From positions 558,001 to 622,000 of the forward strand of contig NZ_SLVY01000001.1 of assembly GCF_004345605.1 (NCBI RefSeq): DNA of 64,000 bases. Direction: 5' to 3'. The notes beneath the pieces were generated by a model. The model did no database searches, was not told where the DNA came from, and worked only from the letters and a program-made list of their open reading frames with translations. Positions within the stretch are counted from its first letter, which is position 1. The number at the start of each line of letters is the position of its first letter. Positions 1 to 9,514 of this stretch are shown here, piece by piece. A program made the translations under genes and the position numbers. The stretch comes from Rhodococcus sp. SMB37. GTDB lineage: Bacteria > Actinomycetota > Actinomycetes > Mycobacteriales > Mycobacteriaceae.

Positions 1-472
1 TCGCGCCCGGCACCGCGGGTGCGTCGCCGGACTTCTCGTACTCGGCGAGGATGTCGATGCGACGCTGGTGCCGCTCCTCGTTCGACCACTCGGTCGCGAG
101 GAAGGCGTCGACGATCGCGAGGGTCTCCTCGAGGGAGTGCATCCGGCCGCCGATACCGATCAGCTGGGCATTGTTGTGCTCGCGGGCGAGCTTCGCCGTC
201 TCGACGCTCCAGGCCAGCGCGCAGCGCGCACCGGGGACCTTGTTCGCGGCGATCTGCTCGCCGTTGCCGCTGCCGCCGAGGACGAGGCCGAGGCTGCCCG
301 GATCTGCAACGGTGCGACGGGCTGCTTCGATGCAGAACGCCGGGTAGTCGTCGAGTGCGTCGTATTCGAAGGCACCGCAGTCGACGGCTTCGTGACCGTT
401 CGCCGTCAGGTGTTCGATGATCTGATTCTTCCGTTCGAAACCGGCGTGGTCGGCTCCCAGGTAAACGCGCAT
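1..472 (-). CDS. rpiB: Ribose-5-phosphate isomerase B, C-terminus cut by the window edge
   Basis: Interconverts ribose 5-phosphate and ribulose 5-phosphate in the non-oxidative pentose phosphate pathway (cytosol). Reading the minus strand from the ATG at 472 gives MRVYLGADHAGFERKNQI, the typical RpiB opening with the GADHAG motif. It continues with VLGGSGNGEQIAANK (phosphate/anion-hole region) and HNNAQLIGIGGR. There is no stop before base 1, so about 157 residues of the family's usual ~150-160 are seen. This is the Rv2465c orthologue and begins a block syntenic with M. tuberculosis. In that species the next gene is Rv2466c; here about 4 kb of extra DNA intervenes. Confidence 0.95.
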   Translation of the reverse strand, partial: MRVYLGADHAGFERKNQIIEHLTANGHEAVDCGAFEYDALDDYPAFCIEAARRTVADPGSLGLVLGGSGNGEQIAANKVPGARCALAWSVETAKLAREHNNAQLIGIGGRMHSLEETLAIVDAFLATEWSNEERHQRRIDILAEYEKSGDAPAVPGA

Positions 473-529
473 GGGCAGAGTCTAGCCAGGAGCCCCCCGC
501 GGACTTGAACCGCTGGCACTCCTCAGGAG

Positions 530-548
530 TGAGGTTTCCCTCACCTAA
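530..548 (+). promoter_or_regulatory. Putative IdeR/DtxR iron box
   Basis: The minus-strand reading TTAGGTGAGGGAAACCTCA matches the 19-bp IdeR/DtxR consensus (TTAGGTTAGGCTAACCTAA) at 15 positions. It ends 22 bp before the ATG of the siderophore-binding lipoprotein gene, where a bound repressor would block transcription under iron sufficiency. The match is seen in the sequence; regulation is inferred. Confidence 0.6.
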
Positions 549-570
549 TCGGACCGGCTAAGTTGAGCGA

Positions 571-1512
571 ATGTTCACATCACAAGGACGATCGGCACGC
601 ATCCTCCTGGGCGCGGCAGCTGCCGCCGCAGCCGTTCTCCTGTCTGCTTGCGGCTCGACCTCGTCCGACGAGGCGGCGCCCTCCGACGAGTCCTACACCG
701 TGGAGCACGCCATGGGTGAGACGACGATCGAAGGCACTCCCGAGCGCATCGTCGTCATCGACTCCCCGCACCTCGACGCCCTCGTCGCACTCGGCATCAC
801 GCCGGTCGGCGCCACCGAATCGGGTGCGGCGACCGGTGTCCCCGCGTACCTCGCCGACGACCTCGAGGGCACCGAGATCGTGGGCCCCACGATGGAGCCC
901 GACCTCGAGGCCATCGCAAGCCTGAACCCCGACCTGATCATCGGTGCACAGGTCCGACACGAGGCGCTCTACGAGCAGCTCTCCGCGATCGCTCCGACCG
1001 TCTTCTCCGTGAACTCGGGTACCGACTGGGAAGAACAGGCCCGCATCACCGCCGCCGCCGTGGGCGAGACGGACGAGATGGAAACCCTCCTCACCGGTGT
1101 CGAGGAACGCGCCGCGCAGATCGGCAAGGAGATCGGTGCCGAAGGTCAGACCGCTTCGATGGTGCGTTTCCGCCCGGACAACTTCCGCCTGTACGGTCCC
1201 GACACCTTCTCTGGCACGATCCTCACGCAGGTCGGGTACGACCTCGGTGCGGATCGCGCCTGGAACGAGTACTCGATGCTCGAGCTCAGCCCCGAGAACT
1301 ACACCGAGATCGACGGCGACGTCGTCTTCTTCACCAATCCCGGCGGCGATCCGGCCGCGACCACAATGGCTGCGGTGACCGGTCTGTGGGGCGCACAGCC
1401 CGGAGTCGCGGCAGGAAACGTCCACGAGTTCGAGGACGAGACCTGGATGGTCGGCATCGGTGTGGTCGGCGCGAACACCATCCTCGACGACCTCGAGGCA
1501 ACCCTGGGCTAA
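571..1512 (+). CDS. Iron-siderophore ABC transporter substrate-binding lipoprotein (FecB/FepB-like)
   Basis: A 313-residue lipoprotein that would capture a ferric siderophore outside the membrane and deliver it to an ABC permease. The N-terminus has an Arg-containing start, an Ala-rich hydrophobic stretch and a lipobox LSAC (Cys27). The mature part is a periplasmic-binding-protein fold of the TroA/FecB type: the IEGTPERIVVIDSPHLDALVALG segment is the usual first lobe, and NPDLIIG recurs. No permease or ATPase gene is adjacent, so it would depend on a transporter encoded elsewhere. An IdeR-like box lies just upstream, which fits iron-repressed uptake. It sits in the accessory DNA between rpiB and the Rv2466c orthologue. 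Confidence 0.85.
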   Translation: MFTSQGRSARILLGAAAAAAAVLLSACGSTSSDEAAPSDESYTVEHAMGETTIEGTPERIVVIDSPHLDALVALGITPVGATESGAATGVPAYLADDLEGTEIVGPTMEPDLEAIASLNPDLIIGAQVRHEALYEQLSAIAPTVFSVNSGTDWEEQARITAAAVGETDEMETLLTGVEERAAQIGKEIGAEGQTASMVRFRPDNFRLYGPDTFSGTILTQVGYDLGADRAWNEYSMLELSPENYTEIDGDVVFFTNPGGDPAATTMAAVTGLWGAQPGVAAGNVHEFEDETWMVGIGVVGANTILDDLEATLG

Positions 1513-1574
1513 CGCGGGCCCCCGCCCCCACCCCATCCCCAGCAGACCACCGAGCCCGGCGTCGTCGAACCCTC

Positions 1575-2050
1575 TCAGACGACGGCGGGCTCTCGATCTG
1601 CCTGCGCCTCGAGCTCCCGCACCAACGGCAGCACCTTGGCGCCGAAGTACTCGACTTCCTCCTGGAAGTGCAGGAAGCCCGCGAGAACAAGGTCGACTCC
1701 GCGGCGGCGGTACTCGACGATGCGCCGCGCGACCTGCTCGGGAGTGCCGATCAACTGCGTGCGAAACCGTCGTTGTACTGCACCAGATCCTCGAACGACG
1801 AGTCCGCCCACATGCCCTTGCCGTCGCCGGTGGACGAACCGGCCTGCTTGACTGCATTGCGGAATCCTTCGACCGCGGGCCTGTTCGCCTTGGCGACGAT
1901 CTCCCGGAGCGTCTCGCGAGCTTCCTTCTCCGTGTCGCGGGCGATGATGAAGCCGTTGAGCCCCACTTTCACCTCCCGCTTGTGCGCGCGGGCGACCTCG
2001 CGCAACTCGTCGATCTGCGCGGTGATGCCGTCGTAGTCCTTGCCGTTGCT
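1575..2050 (-). pseudogene. 3' fragment of an SfnG-like FMNH2-dependent monooxygenase, frameshifted
   Basis: Only the last ~155 residues of a luciferase-fold monooxygenase of the dimethylsulfone monooxygenase (SfnG) type remain. Diagnostic pieces are VGLNGFIIARDTEKEA, KGMWADSSFEDLVQYNDGF, LIGTPEQVARRIVEYRRRGVD and FHFQEEVEYFG-type ending text. The reading frame breaks near 1763: inserting one base (a C/G pair) restores GF-RTQLIGTPEQ. Upstream it is joined in frame to a StyA-like fragment near 2050, so the FMN-binding N-terminal half is missing. A product with SfnG activity is very unlikely. The family supports sulfur scavenging from sulfones; here it is a relic. Confidence 0.8.
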
Positions 2051-2990
2051 GAACAACCGGGTCGTTTCCGCCGCGCCGTGCCCGCGGGCCTCCCAATGCT
2101 TCTCGAACTGGGCGGACAGCCACTGCTCCGTGAAGTCCCCGACGTGATCACGCACAGCGGCGACCAGCGCCGCGACCTGCACGACCGTGTTCTGCGCGCC
2201 CTGCCCCGCCACGGGGTCGAAGGAAATCGCGGTGTCACCGATCGCCGCGACGACGTGACCACCGGCAGTTCGCCCGACACCTCGCCGCACCGTCGGGGTC
2301 ACAGCACCGCGCAGCCACGAGTGCGGATCCTGTTCGATGACCCGCAACTGTTCGACCTCGACGGCGTCCTTCGGGAAGTACTCGCGGTAGAGGTCGACGA
2401 CCGCCTGGCGGGCGCTGTGCGCGTCGGTGGCGGTGTCGAAACGCTCCACCCACGGCGAATCCGGCTTTGCGAATCCCCGGAAACTCCAGGACGGCCCGAC
2501 GTCCTTGTGGAGATACGGGCCGATCCATGCCTCACCGAAATCGGCATGCAGATTGAAAACACTGTGGGTGCCGCCGGCGCTTCGATAGCCCCAGGTCTCG
2601 TCACTGTGATCGGGCCCCTGCAGGGTCACCATCAGCAACTGGCGCTGGGGCTCTGTGTAGACGGTGCGCTCCGCATCGAGCGGGAACAGCGACGCCAGGC
2701 CGCCCTTGCCCGTCGCCACCAGTGTCAGGTCGCTGCCGGACGCGATCTCGTCGAGACTGTCGAGATCCACTGTGCGCACCTCGAATCGACCACCACGGTC
2801 GTGAAATCGGCCGAGACGATCATCCGCACGCAGACGTACATCCACTCCCTGCGCGAGATAACGGAAGTCGGGATCGAATTCGAGCACCTCACCATAGGAC
2901 TCCCCCACCCCGGCGTGCAGGCGCGCACTCATCCCGGTCGACAGCGGACCGTCGGCGTACAGATCCTCGATGATGTCTGCATCCGACTCC
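2051..2990 (-). pseudogene. StyA-like (styrene/indole monooxygenase family) FAD monooxygenase fragment
   Basis: The segment around residues DLTLVATGKGGLASLF, YTEPQRQLLMVTLQG, the TVRRGVG stretch and IGDTAISFDPVAGQGAQN is recognisably the substrate-binding and C-terminal half of the two-component FAD monooxygenases related to StyA. The N-terminal Rossmann GxGxxG FAD motif is absent. Reading back from about 2990 the sequence turns into another gene, and at about 2050 it runs without a stop into the SfnG-like fragment. The open frame 1751-2932 is therefore a chimera produced by deletions, not a normal gene. The exact junctions are approximate because they were placed by family memory, not alignment. 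Confidence 0.7.
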
Positions 2991-3285
2991 AGTGCACCCG
3001 CAGTGCCTGTGGCAGGTTCGATTCCGCCGCGGCCAGATCCATCAACAGTCCGAACAACTGCCGGACGCTCGCGCCGAAGCCCCCGTGCTCGACCGACACG
3101 CGCACCGCCCCGAAACGGGCTTCACGCAGCCACCCGACCTCTTCGAACGGCAGGCGCCGGGCCTGCTCCCGCGCACTCGCACCCTGAGCGACCCGGTCGA
3201 AGACCGGGGCGAAGCGCTCCCGGAGCTCCCGATCGGTCGCGGCCCTGCCATCGGTCACGGCATTCTCGATGGTCGCACTACTCAC
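2991..3285 (-). pseudogene. N-terminal fragment of an acyl-CoA-dehydrogenase-like (SfnB/DszC type) flavin monooxygenase
   Basis: A proper start remains: a GTG at 3285 preceded by GAGGAG with 8-nt spacing, giving VSSATIENAVTDGRAATDR. About 95 residues of the helical N-terminal domain follow (LPFEEVGWLREARFGAVRVS, then AAAESNLPQALRVHW). Homology stops at about HW, where the StyA-like fragment begins in a different frame. The family normally has ~390-400 residues, so about three quarters is lost. Its relatives (SfnB, DszC) are FMNH2-dependent oxygenases or sulfur-acquisition oxidoreductases. This gene headed the minus-strand sulfur-type cluster that has collapsed. Confidence 0.75.
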
Positions 3286-3465
3286 GGCGCACACTCCTCG
3301 TCGGACGGTCTCATCCACCCTGCAGTGCGGAGCCGACGATGGCGCCACTTCTGCTCTACCAGAATGTGATTCGACTCGACAGCGCAAAAGCCGCGCCGTG
3401 CCCGACGGCACGACGCGGCGTCGGCTCCGTCAGACGACTCCGTGGCGCGGGGGGGTGGGTACCGC

Positions 3466-4604
3466 TCAACGTCCATCGGCCGAGTGCTGCAACTTCCATC
3501 GGGTTGCATCGTGCAGGGTATGTGTGCGGGCATCACGCCAGTACCGCGCCAGATTGGCCGAACCCGACGCGCTGCGGGTGCCACCGAGCTCGAACAACGC
3601 GTTCGCAGCCTCGAGTGCCGCGCGGGCCGCGCGGGCCGCGCGGGCCGCGCGGGCCGCGCGGGCCGCGACGACCTTGGCCGTCGCGACCTCGATGGATGCC
3701 TCAGCGGTCGTATCCTCGGTCGGAGTCGCCCGTGCCGCATCGACCGCACGCGCGGCAGCGGCGAGGAGCACCTGCGCAGACCGCACCGTCACGGTGGCCT
3801 CACCGGCGAGCTGAATCAGCAGGGGTCTTCGACGGCACGTCGGACGTCGGCCTCGAAGTGCGGTCGTGCGCGTCTCGCCTGGACTGTGGCTTCCACCAAT
3901 GCGCCGGTGGCGATTCCCACGTCGATCGCAGCGTGGACGAGCTGGGCCTGGGCACCGTAGGTGGTCGGCCCCGAGAAGAGCGGCGAATACGGCACCACCG
4001 ACGACGCGGGCACCGCGATGTCGTCGAGGACCACGGTGCCGCTCGCAGTGGTGCGCTGCCCCATTCCGTCCCAGTCGTCGACGATCGTGAGACCGTCGGT
4101 CCCGCGAGGAACGAACGCGATCACCTTGGGGGTGCCCGCATCCGGCGTATCCGAATCGTCGGACAGGCTGGCGCGCACCACGATCACGTCCGCGAACAAG
4201 GCGCCGGTGCTGTAGAACTTGCGGCCCGACAGGATGTAGTCGTCGCCCCGGCGACGCAGCACCGTGGTGTCGACGTTGATCGGGTGCGGTCCACGCTCGC
4301 TCTGCGCGTTGGCCAGCAACGTGCCGCCGAGGACCTTGCCGTAGAAGAAGCGACACTGTTCGGCACTACCCTGCGTGCGCAGCGCCTCGAGAAAGGTGAA
4401 ATGCGACTGCGGGATCTGTGCGATGCTCGGATCCGCCGCAGCGAGCAGACCGGATTCGGCGAGGGCACGCACCTCGTCGCGCGGCAGGTCTCGGTTCGCG
4501 TCGCGCTGCCCGGCCTCGGCGGCGAAACTGTCGGCCAGCTGCGCAGCGACGCGGAGAGCCTCCTCGCAGCTCCCGAGCCGGGCTGCCGTCGTCGACGCCG
4601 TCAC
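3466..4604 (-). pseudogene. Acyl-CoA-dehydrogenase-like monooxygenase (DszC/SfnB type), frameshifted and internally deleted
   Basis: The frame from 4604 encodes an acyl-CoA-dehydrogenase fold with family text such as ADPSIAQIPQSHF, LANAQSERG, YILSGRKFYSTGA and DGMGQRTTASGTVVLDDI. It stops at 3816 after FEADVRRAVEDPC. Adding one C in the run of four at 3822-3825 restores ...DPLLIQLAGEATVTV and leads to the C-terminal signature WRDARTHTLHD of DszC relatives. Also, AESGLLA joins directly to ADPSIAQ, whereas family members have roughly 24 more residues there, so an in-frame deletion is likely. An expanded Ala-Ala-Arg repeat lies in the last helix. All this points to decay, unless the frameshift is a sequencing error. 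Confidence 0.75.
3617..3667. repeat. 9-bp tandem repeat (about 5.5 units) inside the DszC-like pseudogene
   Basis: Five perfect copies of gccgcgcgg plus a partial sixth. Read on the minus strand in the DszC-like frame it encodes repeated Ala-Ala-Arg. Unit length is a multiple of three, so expansion or contraction keeps the frame. Relatives carry no such run, to my knowledge, so this looks like slippage. Confidence 0.85.
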
Positions 4605-4771
4605 CGTGTGCCCGCCGCAGGCTACCGAACGCTGCCGGCGGTGAGCCGGCTGTCGTCGTAGGTGAGCGGGGACCGGTGGAGCTCACAGGACATGATCCGG
4701 AATCGTAGAGCGCAACCACTCGGCTATCGACCATTGCGCTCGCCGTGATCTCAACTCCCGCCCGAAAGGCA

Positions 4772-4806
4772 CCGGTGGTGGAGCGGACGGTCCACTCCAC
4801 CACCGG
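4772..4806 (-). terminator. Hairpin downstream of the Rv2466c orthologue
   Basis: Perfect 12-bp GC-rich arms (4772-4783 and 4795-4806) with a further GGA/TCC pairing inside the loop. It begins 30 bp past the stop codon of the minus-strand gene ending at 4836. There is no clear U-tract, as is common in actinobacteria. The rest of the 4605-4835 gap shows nothing else. Confidence 0.55.
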
Positions 4807-4835
4807 AGGCCTCCGCCTGCCGGGTTCTGTCGGCG

Positions 4836-5465
4836 CTAGTCGAAGCTGGGGTCTTCGTTGCGGCTGCGCTTGAGCTCGAAGAAGTGCGGGTAGGACGCGA
4901 GTGCGACGACGCCGTCCCACACCTTGCCGGCTTCTTCGCCGCGCGGGATCTTCGACAGCACCGGCCCGAAGAACGCGACACCGTTGACGTGGATAGTGGG
5001 GGTTCCCACGTCCGGGCCTACGGCGTCCATCCCCGCCGCGTGGCTTGCGCGCAGCGCCTCGTCGTATTCTTCGCTTTCGGCAGCCTGCGCGAGGACAGGG
5101 TCGAGGTCGAGTTCGGCGAGAGCACCGGCGATGACGTCGGTGAAGTCCTTGTTGCCCTCGTTGTGGATGCGAGTGCCCATCGCGGTGTAGAGGCTCTCGA
5201 GGATCTCGTCACCGTACTTCTGCGACGCCGCGATCGCGACACGCACCGGTCCCCACGCCTTCTTCATCATCTCGGAGTACTCGTCGGGCAGGTCGCGGCC
5301 CTCGTTGAGGACGGCGAGGCTCATGACGTGGAAGCGTGCCTCGATGTCGCGTACCCGGGTGACCTCGAGGATCCACCGCGAGGTGATCCAACACCACGGG
5401 CACAACGGGTCGAACCAGAAATCGGCTGTGTCCTTACCGGCGGTACCGGTGGTCTGGTCACTCAA
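4836..5465 (-). CDS. Mycothiol-dependent nitroreductase, Rv2466c orthologue (DsbA-like thioredoxin fold)
   Basis: About 209 residues, almost co-linear with M. tuberculosis Rv2466c, a mycothiol-dependent reductase known for activating nitro prodrugs. The active-site motif CPWC is at residues 22-25 in [17 protein letters not shown], followed by [16 protein letters not shown], then [18 protein letters not shown] and the closing [17 protein letters not shown] chose a TTG start at 5465 because GAGGAG lies 7 nt upstream, there is no in-frame ATG near, and the length then matches the family. The gene is divergent from the flavoprotein gene at 5627 with a 161-bp shared promoter region. Confidence 0.93.
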
Positions 5466-5626
5466 AATGATCTCCTCACACGAATCGGTTTCCAGAGAGT
5501 GCAACACCACCCCGCGGGGCATTCTTCCCGATCTTCGCCGCGGCAGTGCGCGGTCCCCGTACCGTCGGACACGAGGACCGGGACGCAAAGCGTGTGAGCG
5601 CGCACAAATGAACGAGAGGTCATGCG

Positions 5627-6868
5627 ATGGCGGGTGAGAAGACGTTCGTGATCGTCGGCGCCGGACTCGCCGGCGCCAAGGTGGCGGAAGAACTGCGGGC
5701 ACGAGATTTCCCAGGGCACGTGGTATTGATCGGCACCGAGGAACATCTGCCGTACGAACGACCGCCGCTGTCGAAGGAGTATTTCGCCGGCGACAAGAGA
5801 CTTCTCGACTTCACCGTGCAGCGCGGCGACTGGTACCGAGACCATCGTGTCGATCTTCGCCTCGGCACGACGGTCACCGCGATCGACCCGGCCGCGCACA
5901 CGGTCTCCTTACCGGACGGTTCGACCGTGCACTACGACAAGTTGGCGCTCGCGACGGGATCACGGTCTCGGCGTCTGCCGCTTTCCGGGGCCGACAGTTC
6001 GGGCGTCCACGTCCTGCGCACGGTCTCGGAGGCCGACGACCTGCTCGCCGCGATCCGGCGCGACGACGGCACCGCCGCGCGCCTCGCGATCATCGGCGCG
6101 GGATGGATCGGACTCGAGATAGCGGCGGGTGCGCGGGGGCACGGCGCCGACGTGACGGTGATCGAATCCGCGGCCACTCCCCTGTCCGGATCGCTGGGCC
6201 CGCAGATCGGCGCGGTGTTCTCCGACCTGCACCGGGCGCACGGAGTCGACATGAGGCTCGACGCGTCGGTCCGGGAGATCGCCGTCGACGGCGGCCGCGC
6301 CGCAGGTGTCGTCCTTGCCGACGGGAGCACCCTGCCGGCAGATGCGGTGCTTGTCGCGGTGGGTGCGGCACCCAACATCGAGCTCGCCGAGGACGCGGGC
6401 CTCGCTGTCGACGGCGGGGTCCTCGTCGACTCGTCGCTGGCCACGAGTGATCCGGACATCGTCGCGGTCGGCGACATTGCGGCGGCCGAGCACCCCACAC
6501 TCGGCGGCCGGGTGCGGGTAGAGCACTGGGCCAACGCACTGAACCAACCTGCGGTGGCCGCGGCGACGATGCTCGGCATCGATGCCTCCTACGACCGCTT
6601 GCCGTACTTCTTCACCGACCAGTACGACCTCGGGATGGAGTACGTCGGGCTGGCACCACCCGATTCACGGGTAGTCACCCGCGGAGATGTCGACATGCGC
6701 GAGTTCCTCGCGTTCTGGCTCGACGACGACAACAAGGTGCTGGCCGGGATGAACGTGAACATCTGGGACGCCGGCGACGACATCCGTGCACTCGTCTCGT
6801 CGGGTTCACCCGTCGATCCGGCCCGCCTCGCGGACACGAGCGTGCCGTTGTCGGACGTCGCCACCTGA
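5627..6868 (+). CDS. FAD-dependent oxidoreductase, ferredoxin/putidaredoxin reductase family
   Basis: A 413-residue flavoprotein with two dinucleotide-binding motifs: GAGLAG at residues 11-16 for FAD and [11 protein letters not shown] in the middle for NAD(P)H. It also has the [10 protein letters not shown]-type FAD contact region and a C-terminal reductase domain ([11 protein letters not shown]). Such proteins move electrons from NAD(P)H to a ferredoxin or rubredoxin serving an oxygenase or P450; no partner gene is adjacent, so the electron acceptor is unknown. The gene is divergent from the Rv2466c orthologue and followed by pepN after 63 bp. Confidence 0.88.
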
Positions 6869-6931
6869 GCGCGCCCCGACCATGATGGGATGGGTTCCGA
6901 CCGACATCCCGTCGTGAGAAGGAGTTCTCCT

Positions 6932-9514
6932 GTGGCACCACCGAACCTGACCCGCGAGCAGGCCGCCGAGCGGGCAGCGGTCCTGCACGTCGACAATTAC
7001 ACCGTCGTCCTCGACCTGACCGACGGGTCCGGAGCACCGGGGGCCACTACGTTCCGGTCCGTCACCACGGTGACGTTCGATGCGACCGAGGGTGCGTCGA
7101 CCTTCATCGATCTCGTCGCACAGACCGTGCATTCGGCCACGCTCAACGGCTCACCCGTGGACGTGTCCGGATACACCGAGGACACCGGGATAGCACTGAC
7201 CGGCCTCGCCGCGCACAACGAGCTCGTCGTCGACGCCGACTGCCTCTACACGAACACCGGCGAGGGGCTTCACCGGTTCGTCGATCCGACCGACGACGCG
7301 GTGTACCTGTACTCACAGTTCGAGACAGCCGACGCCAAGCGGATGTTCGCGTGCTTCGACCAGCCCGATCTCAAGGCCACCTTCGATCTGTCGGTCACCG
7401 CACCTGCCGAATGGAAGGTGATCTCGAACTCCGAGACCGTGCAGACCACCGCGGCATCGCCCGGTCAGCACGTCTTCCGTACCACCCCGCGGATGAGCAC
7501 CTACCTCGTCGCGCTCATCGCGGGTCCGTATGCCGAGTGGACCGACACCTACACCGACGAGCATGGCACGATCCCGCTCGGCCTCTACTGCCGCGCGTCC
7601 CTCGCCGAGTTCATGGACGCCGAGCGTCTGTTCACGGAGACCAAGCAGGGCTTCGGTTTCTACCACGAGAATTTCGGCGTCCCGTACGCGTTCGGGAAGT
7701 ACGACCAGCTGTTCGTGCCGGAGTTCAACGCGGGAGCGATGGAAAATGCCGGCGCGGTGACGTTCCTCGAGGACTACGTCTTCCGGTCCAAGGTCACCCG
7801 CTATTCCTACGAGCGGCGAGCCGAGACGATCCTGCACGAGATGGCGCACATGTGGTTCGGCGACCTCGTCACCATGCGCTGGTGGGACGATCTGTGGCTC
7901 AACGAGTCCTTCGCGACGTTCGCGTCCGTGCTCTCCCAGGTTTCGGCCACCGAATACACCAACGCATGGACGACGTTCGCGAACGTCGAGAAGTCGTGGG
8001 CGTACCGGCAGGATCAGCTGCCGTCCACACATCCGATCGCTGCGGACATCCCCGATCTTGCCGCCGTCGAGGTCAACTTCGACGGCATCACCTACGCGAA
8101 GGGCGCGTCGGTGCTCAAGCAGCTCGTCGCCTACGTCGGGCAGGAGCCGTTCCTCGAAGGTCTGCGCGCATACTTCCGCGACCACGCCTTCGACAACGCG
8201 ACCTTCGACGACCTGCTGGCCGCGCTCGAGAAGTCGTCGGGCCGCGACCTGTCGGGCTGGGGCGCCCAGTGGCTCAAGACGACGGGGCTGAACATCCTGC
8301 GCCCCGACTTCGAGGTCGGCGCCGACGGCAAGTTCACCCGCTTCTCAGTGCTGCAGGAGGGCGCGCAACCCGGCGCCGGTGAGTTCCGCGTGCATCGCCT
8401 CGCGATCGGTGTCTACGACGACGACGGCTCAGGCAAGCTCGTGCGCACCCACCGCGTCGAGATCGATGTCGACGCTGCCGCGAGCACCGACGTCCCCGAA
8501 CTCGTCGGTGTGGATCGGGGCAAGTTCGTGCTCGTCAACGACGACGATCTGACCTACTGCTCCGTCCGGCTCGACGACGAGTCGCTCAGCACTGTGATAG
8601 AACGCGTCGGCGACATCGCCGACTCGCTGCCGCGCACATTGGTGTGGTCGGCTGCATGGGAGATGACCCGGCAGGCCGAGCTCGCGGCCCGCGATTTCGT
8701 GGCGCTGGTGAAGCGAGGTATCGCTGCGGAGACCGAGGTGGGTGTCGTGCAGCGTTTGCTGATGCAGGCGCATACGGCGGTCGGCAGCTATGCCGACCCC
8801 GCGTGGGCCGAGGCATCGGGCTGGAGCGACTACGCGAACCGCCTGCTCGAACTGGCGCGCGCAGCCGAGCCGGCCTCCGACCATCAGCTCACGTTCGTCA
8901 ACGCCCTGTCCACCGCCCGGCTCTCACCGTGGCACACGGAGGTGTTCGAGGAGCTGCTCGGCGGCGATCCGGCAAAGGTCGGACTGCCCGGTCTGGTCGT
9001 GGATACCGATCTCCGGTGGCGCCTCGTGCAGGCGCTCGCAGCCGCCGGTGAGATCGACGCCGAGGGCGTCGAGTCGCCGTTCATCGACGCGGAAGCCGAG
9101 CGCGACCCGACCGCGGCGGGTGCCCGGCAGGCAGCGGCGGCACGCGCGGCCCGTCCGCAGGAAGCGGTCAAGGCCCAGGTCTGGCAGACGGTGGTCGGTG
9201 ACGACACCGTGCCGAACATCACTGCTCGTTCGATCATCGGTGGTTTCGCGCCGGTCGGTCAATCGGAACTGCTCGAGCCCTACGTGGCGCGATACTTCGC
9301 TGAGGTGCCCGAGGTGTGGGAACGCCGGTCGAGTGAGGTCGCGCAGACCGTGGTCGTGGGCCTGTACCCGTCATGGTCGATCAGTGAGGCCTCGGTCACA
9401 GCAGCCGACGAGTTCCTCGCCGGTGATCGACCGCCGGCGCTGCGCCGATTGATCATCGAGGGGCGCGCGGGGATCGTGCGGTCGCTGCGAGCTCAGGCGT
9501 TCGACGCGTCCTGA
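6932..9514 (+). CDS. pepN: Aminopeptidase N, M1 family zinc metallopeptidase
   Basis: Removes N-terminal amino acids from peptides in the cytosol. About 860 residues, the usual length for actinobacterial PepN. The exopeptidase motif GAMEN is at residues 268-272, the zinc motif HEMAH at 302-306 and the third ligand Glu at 325 (in NESFA), spaced as in M1 enzymes. I chose the GTG at 6932 (MAPPNLTREQ) because GAGAAGGAG lies just upstream. An ATG 42 bp earlier is possible but lacks a ribosome-binding site. This is the Rv2467 orthologue, and the gene ends at a very long hairpin. Confidence 0.96.
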   Translation: MAPPNLTREQAAERAAVLHVDNYTVVLDLTDGSGAPGATTFRSVTTVTFDATEGASTFIDLVAQTVHSATLNGSPVDVSGYTEDTGIALTGLAAHNELVVDADCLYTNTGEGLHRFVDPTDDAVYLYSQFETADAKRMFACFDQPDLKATFDLSVTAPAEWKVISNSETVQTTAASPGQHVFRTTPRMSTYLVALIAGPYAEWTDTYTDEHGTIPLGLYCRASLAEFMDAERLFTETKQGFGFYHENFGVPYAFGKYDQLFVPEFNAGAMENAGAVTFLEDYVFRSKVTRYSYERRAETILHEMAHMWFGDLVTMRWWDDLWLNESFATFASVLSQVSATEYTNAWTTFANVEKSWAYRQDQLPSTHPIAADIPDLAAVEVNFDGITYAKGASVLKQLVAYVGQEPFLEGLRAYFRDHAFDNATFDDLLAALEKSSGRDLSGWGAQWLKTTGLNILRPDFEVGADGKFTRFSVLQEGAQPGAGEFRVHRLAIGVYDDDGSGKLVRTHRVEIDVDAAASTDVPELVGVDRGKFVLVNDDDLTYCSVRLDDESLSTVIERVGDIADSLPRTLVWSAAWEMTRQAELAARDFVALVKRGIAAETEVGVVQRLLMQAHTAVGSYADPAWAEASGWSDYANRLLELARAAEPASDHQLTFVNALSTARLSPWHTEVFEELLGGDPAKVGLPGLVVDTDLRWRLVQALAAAGEIDAEGVESPFIDAEAERDPTAAGARQAAAARAARPQEAVKAQVWQTVVGDDTVPNITARSIIGGFAPVGQSELLEPYVARYFAEVPEVWERRSSEVAQTVVVGLYPSWSISEASVTAADEFLAGDRPPALRRLIIEGRAGIVRSLRAQAFDAS

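Follow-up and report, generated by a model that had tools for sequence, protein, structure and literature searches.

The minus strand of the window, the 64,000-nucleotide stretch of DNA analysed here, very probably carries between positions 4604 and 1575 the remnant of an organosulfur-scavenging operon that was inactivated recently and is still intact in relatives. Read in this direction, the genes follow in the order SfnB, a second SfnB/DszC-like gene (DszC2), a StyA-like gene and SfnG, and all four have been hit by lesions, at least seven in number: two large deletions and one of 75 bp, three frame breaks that each stem from a single lost base, and a 9-bp repeat that has expanded. The original prediction had proposed a once-functional operon collapsing in place, or else errors in assembly; collapse in place is supported as the best-fitting reading, with intact versions found in another genome of the genus (G008), in R. 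aetherivorans and in Nocardia. This is ordinary gene loss, though well preserved, and it provides a dated snapshot of operon loss in which all four genes are broken and the codons are still marked by selection.

Anatomy of the remnant

The features are listed below, with deletion ends set by comparison with G008, from which the true parent sequence may differ.

3466..4604, minus strand: remnant of sfnB (SfnB1), split over two frames; it carries an in-frame deletion of 75 bp and frame breaks near 3825 and, where the gene ends, near 3483
4441..4445: scar of the 75-bp sfnB deletion; flanks overlap by 5 bases (blastn), with a 75-base gap relative to G008 (alignment)
3617..3667: 9-bp tandem repeat in sfnB, 5.7 copies (Tandem Repeats Finder); the region is 36 bp longer than that of G008
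2988..3285, minus strand: 5' remnant of DszC2; residues 30-114 of 425 align, at 80% identity
2987..2990: junction of DszC2 and the StyA-like gene, out of frame; blastn pieces overlap by 4 bases, and about 1.17 kb is absent relative to G008, an amount that depends on the ancestor, as R. aetherivorans carries one more gene at this place
2054..2990, minus strand: middle of a StyA-like flavin monooxygenase gene, residues about 58-368 of 450, at 77% identity; both ends gone
2051..2053: junction of the StyA-like gene and sfnG, in frame; blastn pieces overlap by 3 bases, and about 0.99 kb is absent relative to G008
1575..2053, minus strand: 3' portion of sfnG (residues 213-371 of 371), whose frame breaks near 1763

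Aligned to the intact G008 proteins, the six remnant pieces are 70-89% identical and score 264-1285; 200 shuffles of each piece score 46-76 at most. The two SfnB1 pieces match residues 36-320 and 321-422 of G008 SfnB1 at 70% and 76% identity, respectively, and the two sfnG pieces match G008 SfnG at 89% and 82%. Family scans agree, with Acyl-CoA_dh_M and Acyl-CoA_dh_2 found in the two SfnB1 pieces and Smoa_sbd (39.1 bits) in the StyA-like remnant. The acyl-CoA-dehydrogenase-like, StyA-like and SfnG-like segments foreseen on this strand are thereby confirmed, and the alignments bear out their nature as remnants.

The models for SfnG, SfnB and StyA all match the segments, each below the curated cut-off. 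The two sfnG pieces reach 145.4 and 79.9 bits with TIGR04021, where a whole SfnG protein exceeds 382.95; with TIGR04022, for which a whole SfnB exceeds 430.9 bits, the first and second SfnB1 pieces reach 262.8 and 91.9 bits and the DszC2 remnant 30.7 bits, the cut-off being far higher. The StyA-like remnant obtains 93.7 bits with NF045732, where a whole StyA exceeds 550, and it begins at about residue 58 of the G008 protein, without the N-terminal part, which we take to be the site of flavin binding.

Comparison with four relatives shows the breaks near 3825 and 1763, and comparison with five shows the one near 3483. Breaks had been placed at 2050, 2990, 3822 and 1763; the last is kept, and the other three are refined to 2051-2053, 2987-2990 and near 3825. 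The alignments also recover the frameshift and the internal deletion expected in the upstream gene (the break near 3825 and the 75-bp deletion) and add lesions absent from the original prediction, namely the break near 3483, the repeat array at 3617-3667 and the gain of a single base near 3455, which falls in a run of C within the poorly conserved sfnB tail and may be an eighth lesion.

With respect to mechanism, at least seven insertions and deletions would have broken all four genes in the lineage of the window. The two large deletions, whose ends have 3-4 bases in common, may have arisen by slippage or end joining at short stretches of identity, and one of them would by chance have preserved the reading frame, leaving a 393-codon chimera.

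A chimeric open frame

1751..2932, minus strand: 393-codon open frame joining the StyA-like middle to the C-terminal part of SfnG

The proposed in-frame passage from the StyA-like part into SfnG is real and lies at 2051-2053, whereas the suggestion that an acyl-CoA-dehydrogenase-like start also runs in frame into the StyA-like part does not hold, as that frame is closed by a stop at 2929 and the StyA-like part is read in a different one. The chimera passes the Pfam gathering scores of two monooxygenase families, Smoa_sbd and Bac_luciferase, one of them narrowly (28 versus 27.9 bits), and software is therefore liable to annotate it as a monooxygenase, a misleading call that had been anticipated.

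That this frame might be a new, working fused monooxygenase is extremely improbable. Its 393 open codons, its two Pfam passes and its low dN/dS speak for such an enzyme; against it, the StyA-like protein has lost its residues 1-57 and SfnG its residues 1-212, the frame is broken before the end of SfnG, and the low dN/dS is attributable to selection before the collapse. A working product is not expected. A fusion conserved in several genomes would also be at odds with a remnant. A 100-residue query spanning the junction was run against 401 genomes of the family, of which 216 matched at E <= 1e-10; among the matches listed, the join was found in no second genome, and the whole query was matched only in the window genome (G000). 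The list is ranked by score, and a true fusion should therefore stand near its top, where the window's own match (210.9 bits) is followed by one of 93.9 bits. Two candidates aligning over 90 of the 100 query residues (G207 and G230) were rejected as fusions, as the aligned part is the natural C-terminus of a StyA-like protein, only weakly aligned beyond the junction.

The intact operon and its predicted function

Five genes, each a long open frame, fill the corresponding slot in G008: SfnB, FmdA, a second SfnB/DszC-like gene, a StyA-like gene and SfnG. R. aetherivorans (L021, 540-8362) has six genes: an SsuD-like gene, which scores under the SsuD family cut-off, SfnB, an SfnB/DszC-like gene, an NtaA/DmoA-family monooxygenase, a StyA-like gene and SfnG. 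Intact versions occur in Nocardia as well, in a different gene order. Among the relatives' loci, taken as the best 80 of 212 related stretches, StyA-like and SfnG genes stand together in 29 (28 Nocardia and one Rhodococcus), and in 28 of these both are full length, that is, at least 400 (StyA-like) and 340 (SfnG) residues are aligned with no stop; in the remaining one (L050) the StyA-like gene aligns partly. Two further loci (L022 and L031) have a StyA-like gene and no SfnG within the stretch.

The loss of FmdA (formamidase) was considered as an additional deletion and rejected: R. aetherivorans also lacks FmdA at that place, so the gene looks like an insertion in G008, and the FmdA relative of the window genome belongs to a separate locus.

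By family resemblance, SfnG would open dimethyl sulfone, and the ancestral operon may have oxidised a sulfide or sulfoxide to the sulfone and freed its sulfur, the putative substrate being assigned on the same grounds. In the accessible part of PMC13352529, dimethyl sulfide and sulfoxide are oxidised in Acinetobacter baylyi by three flavin monooxygenases of the acyl-CoA-dehydrogenase fold (group D), and growth on dimethyl sulfide is described for Rhodococcus opacus. The name sfnB does not occur in the accessible text of PMC13352529; a tie between SfnB and its group D enzymes is suggested by the shared fold.

Timing of the collapse

The six pieces contain no stop in 946 codons. Depending on the mutation setting, of which nine were used, a stop would appear at 95% probability after 79-112 neutral substitutions; the number accumulated since the frames came free is therefore probably below about 0.028-0.040 per site. 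The branch dN/dS, for which 927 codon columns were pooled, is 0.150 (0.116-0.194, 95% bootstrap) for the window and 0.240 (0.168-0.334) for intact G008; pairwise values are 0.08-0.29 for the window pieces and 0-0.40 for intact relatives among themselves. At dS 0.52 the branch leading to the window is long, all these being rough counting estimates at saturating distances. Truncating and frame-breaking lesions relative to intact orthologues are thus accompanied by neither of the marks of relaxed selection, raised dN/dS or stop codons, a combination expected of a decayed operon only if the loss was recent. The long branch with its low dN/dS points to selection over most of its length and breakage near its end, and the absence of stops, together with a dN/dS no higher than in an intact relative, likewise argues for a recent collapse.

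For slow neutral decay, seven insertions or deletions are many when neither a stop nor surplus amino-acid changes have appeared beside them, and the pattern would also fit a local fault of assembly. It is tempting to suppose that the lesions were acquired jointly instead of successively, through a single bout or a small number of bouts of breakage and error-prone repair limited to this slot; we regard this as quite unlikely, but if true, it would explain how at least seven indels came without a stop or an excess of amino-acid changes, and also the repeated partial losses at the slot in related species.

The slot across the genus

The rpiB and Rv2466c-like genes that mark the slot lie on one contig, less than 8 kb apart, in all 18 genus genomes. 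Five operon genes are present there in one genome (G008), sfnB with sfnG in two (G009 and G013), sfnB alone in one (G006) and the collapsed set in one (G000). One more (G003) retains, by blastn, a 96-bp sfnG scrap (L148, 2625-2726), the residue of a deletion whose end points differ. The remaining 12 slots hold no clear trace, although G005, one of these, gives a weak match to 16 SfnB residues (E 0.016), and G001 and G014, also among the 12, carry the cluster or part of it elsewhere in the genome. In G004, another of the 12, a frame-broken 3' piece of sfnG, in two frames, lies at the end of a contig other than that of the slot (L107, C215) and is apparently another decaying copy.

Acquisition of the operon by transfer after the split from G010 and G011, followed by decay, would be compatible with the collapse and is possible, though we consider it doubtful. 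These two nearest relatives (dS 0.27-0.64 over rpiB, the Rv2466c-like gene and the next reductase gene) have fecB and no trace of the operon in their slots, so that their common ancestor may or may not have had it; fecB without the operon is also found at the slot in G002, G004 and G016, and the cluster parts located elsewhere in G001 and G014 imply that the cluster has moved. On the other side, all or some of the operon genes occupy the slot in G008, G009, G013 and G006, G+C is 68% in the operon and 67% in its flanks, and the distance to G008 (dS 0.50-1.05 for operon pieces, 0.48-0.68 for three flanking genes) gives no sign of a recent transfer from there.

Between rpiB and the operon, at 571-1512, lies a gene for a substrate-binding lipoprotein of a Fe(3+)-dicitrate-type ABC transporter, which scores under the model cut-off; a gene of this kind is found at the slot in 6 of the 18 genomes. 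The G010 counterpart is 91% identical in DNA, and its protein aligns over only 259 residues at 74%, which suggests that it carries a frame break. A tRNA-like stretch at 480-570, single-copy in the genome, was set aside: it has no Rfam match up to E 0.5 (window 1-7000), and ARAGORN finds no gene there or at its counterparts in seven related loci.

Other copies in the genome

The window genome (6.2 Mb, 52 contigs, rated 100% complete), in which the window covers positions 558001-622000 of contig C1, contains no SfnG above the TIGR04021 cut-off and no SfnB above that of TIGR04022, which are present in 5 and 6 of the 18 genus genomes, respectively. A StyA-like match at E <= 0.001 occurs in 3 of the 18, and the window genome has none besides the remnant. 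The activity of the operon products would have been lost; the genome has many lower-scoring relatives, remnants included (43 matches for SfnG and 61 for SfnB), so that its loss from the whole cell is less certain. On present evidence, the strain should not be credited with the use of dimethylsulfone.

Assembly error as an alternative

The joins and frame breaks could also be local errors of assembly or sequencing in a strain whose operon works. With low dN/dS and no stops, every piece still appears functional, each of the three frame breaks is the loss of one base, the gain near 3455 falls in a run of C, and the assembly is split over 52 contigs. Against these points, an assembly rated 100% complete contains nowhere else what SfnG, SfnB and the StyA-like gene have lost here, the same genes have been partly lost at the same slot in other genomes, and assemblers are not known to join sequences routinely over 3-4 shared bases.

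Lesions are, moreover, few in the neighbourhood. Over 400 kb around the slot, 248 of 291 mechanically called G011 ORFs (94,274 codons) were compared, the other 43 having no match at 70% identity or more and the collapsed genes not being among the 248, as G011 has no copy of the operon. The 38 rows obtained comprise 25 stops, of which 21 lie within the first 120 codons, five frame changes, four of them within codons 1-131, where mechanically called ORFs extend past the start, and one near a 3' end, four truncated matches and four gaps of at least 8 residues. The reverse survey, of 241 out of 279 G000 ORFs against G011, returned 39 rows, which makes the two genomes comparable in this respect. 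Seven lesions in some 3 kb are therefore more than generally poor sequence would account for; a fault limited to this spot is possible, and the assembly-error alternative of the original prediction, weakened by the 248-gene survey, stands as an unlikely one.

A few of the surveyed rows look like genuine lesions. One of them, beyond the window (G000:C1, about 467392-468204), is a 319-codon gene interrupted by a stop at codon 250, with 97% identity to G011 on either side, likely a pseudogene.

Comparison with known systems

The remnant corresponds to the C-terminal part of SfnG, the FMNH2-dependent dimethylsulfone monooxygenase, and is 82-89% identical to G008 SfnG, itself a clear member of the family (TIGR04021 627.5 bits versus 382.95; match to structure 8t0u at E 2e-147). 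Unlike SfnG, it lacks residues 1-212 and its frame is broken near 1763. The upstream remnant belongs to SfnB, whose G008 copy reaches 487 bits with TIGR04022 against a cut-off of 430.9, but differs from it in the 75-bp deletion and two frame breaks; the second is the start of an SfnB/DszC relative, whose G008 copy scores 262.7 bits, under the cut-off, and it is reduced to the 5' part. The StyA-like remnant is a distant homologue of StyA (NF045732) with a Smoa_sbd domain, and the intact G008 copy matches solved styrene and indole monooxygenases. It lacks both ends, however, and the intact R. aetherivorans copy reaches only 113.8 of the 550 bits required, which argues that the family is not StyA proper.

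Finally, the rapid deletion of young bacterial pseudogenes is a known process, according to the accessible part of Kuo and Ochman 2010 (PMC2916853), and the collapse described here resembles it in that recently broken genes are being removed by deletion. As far as that part of the source extends, the difference is one of setting: it deals with Salmonella, whereas here one whole operon bears several lesions.
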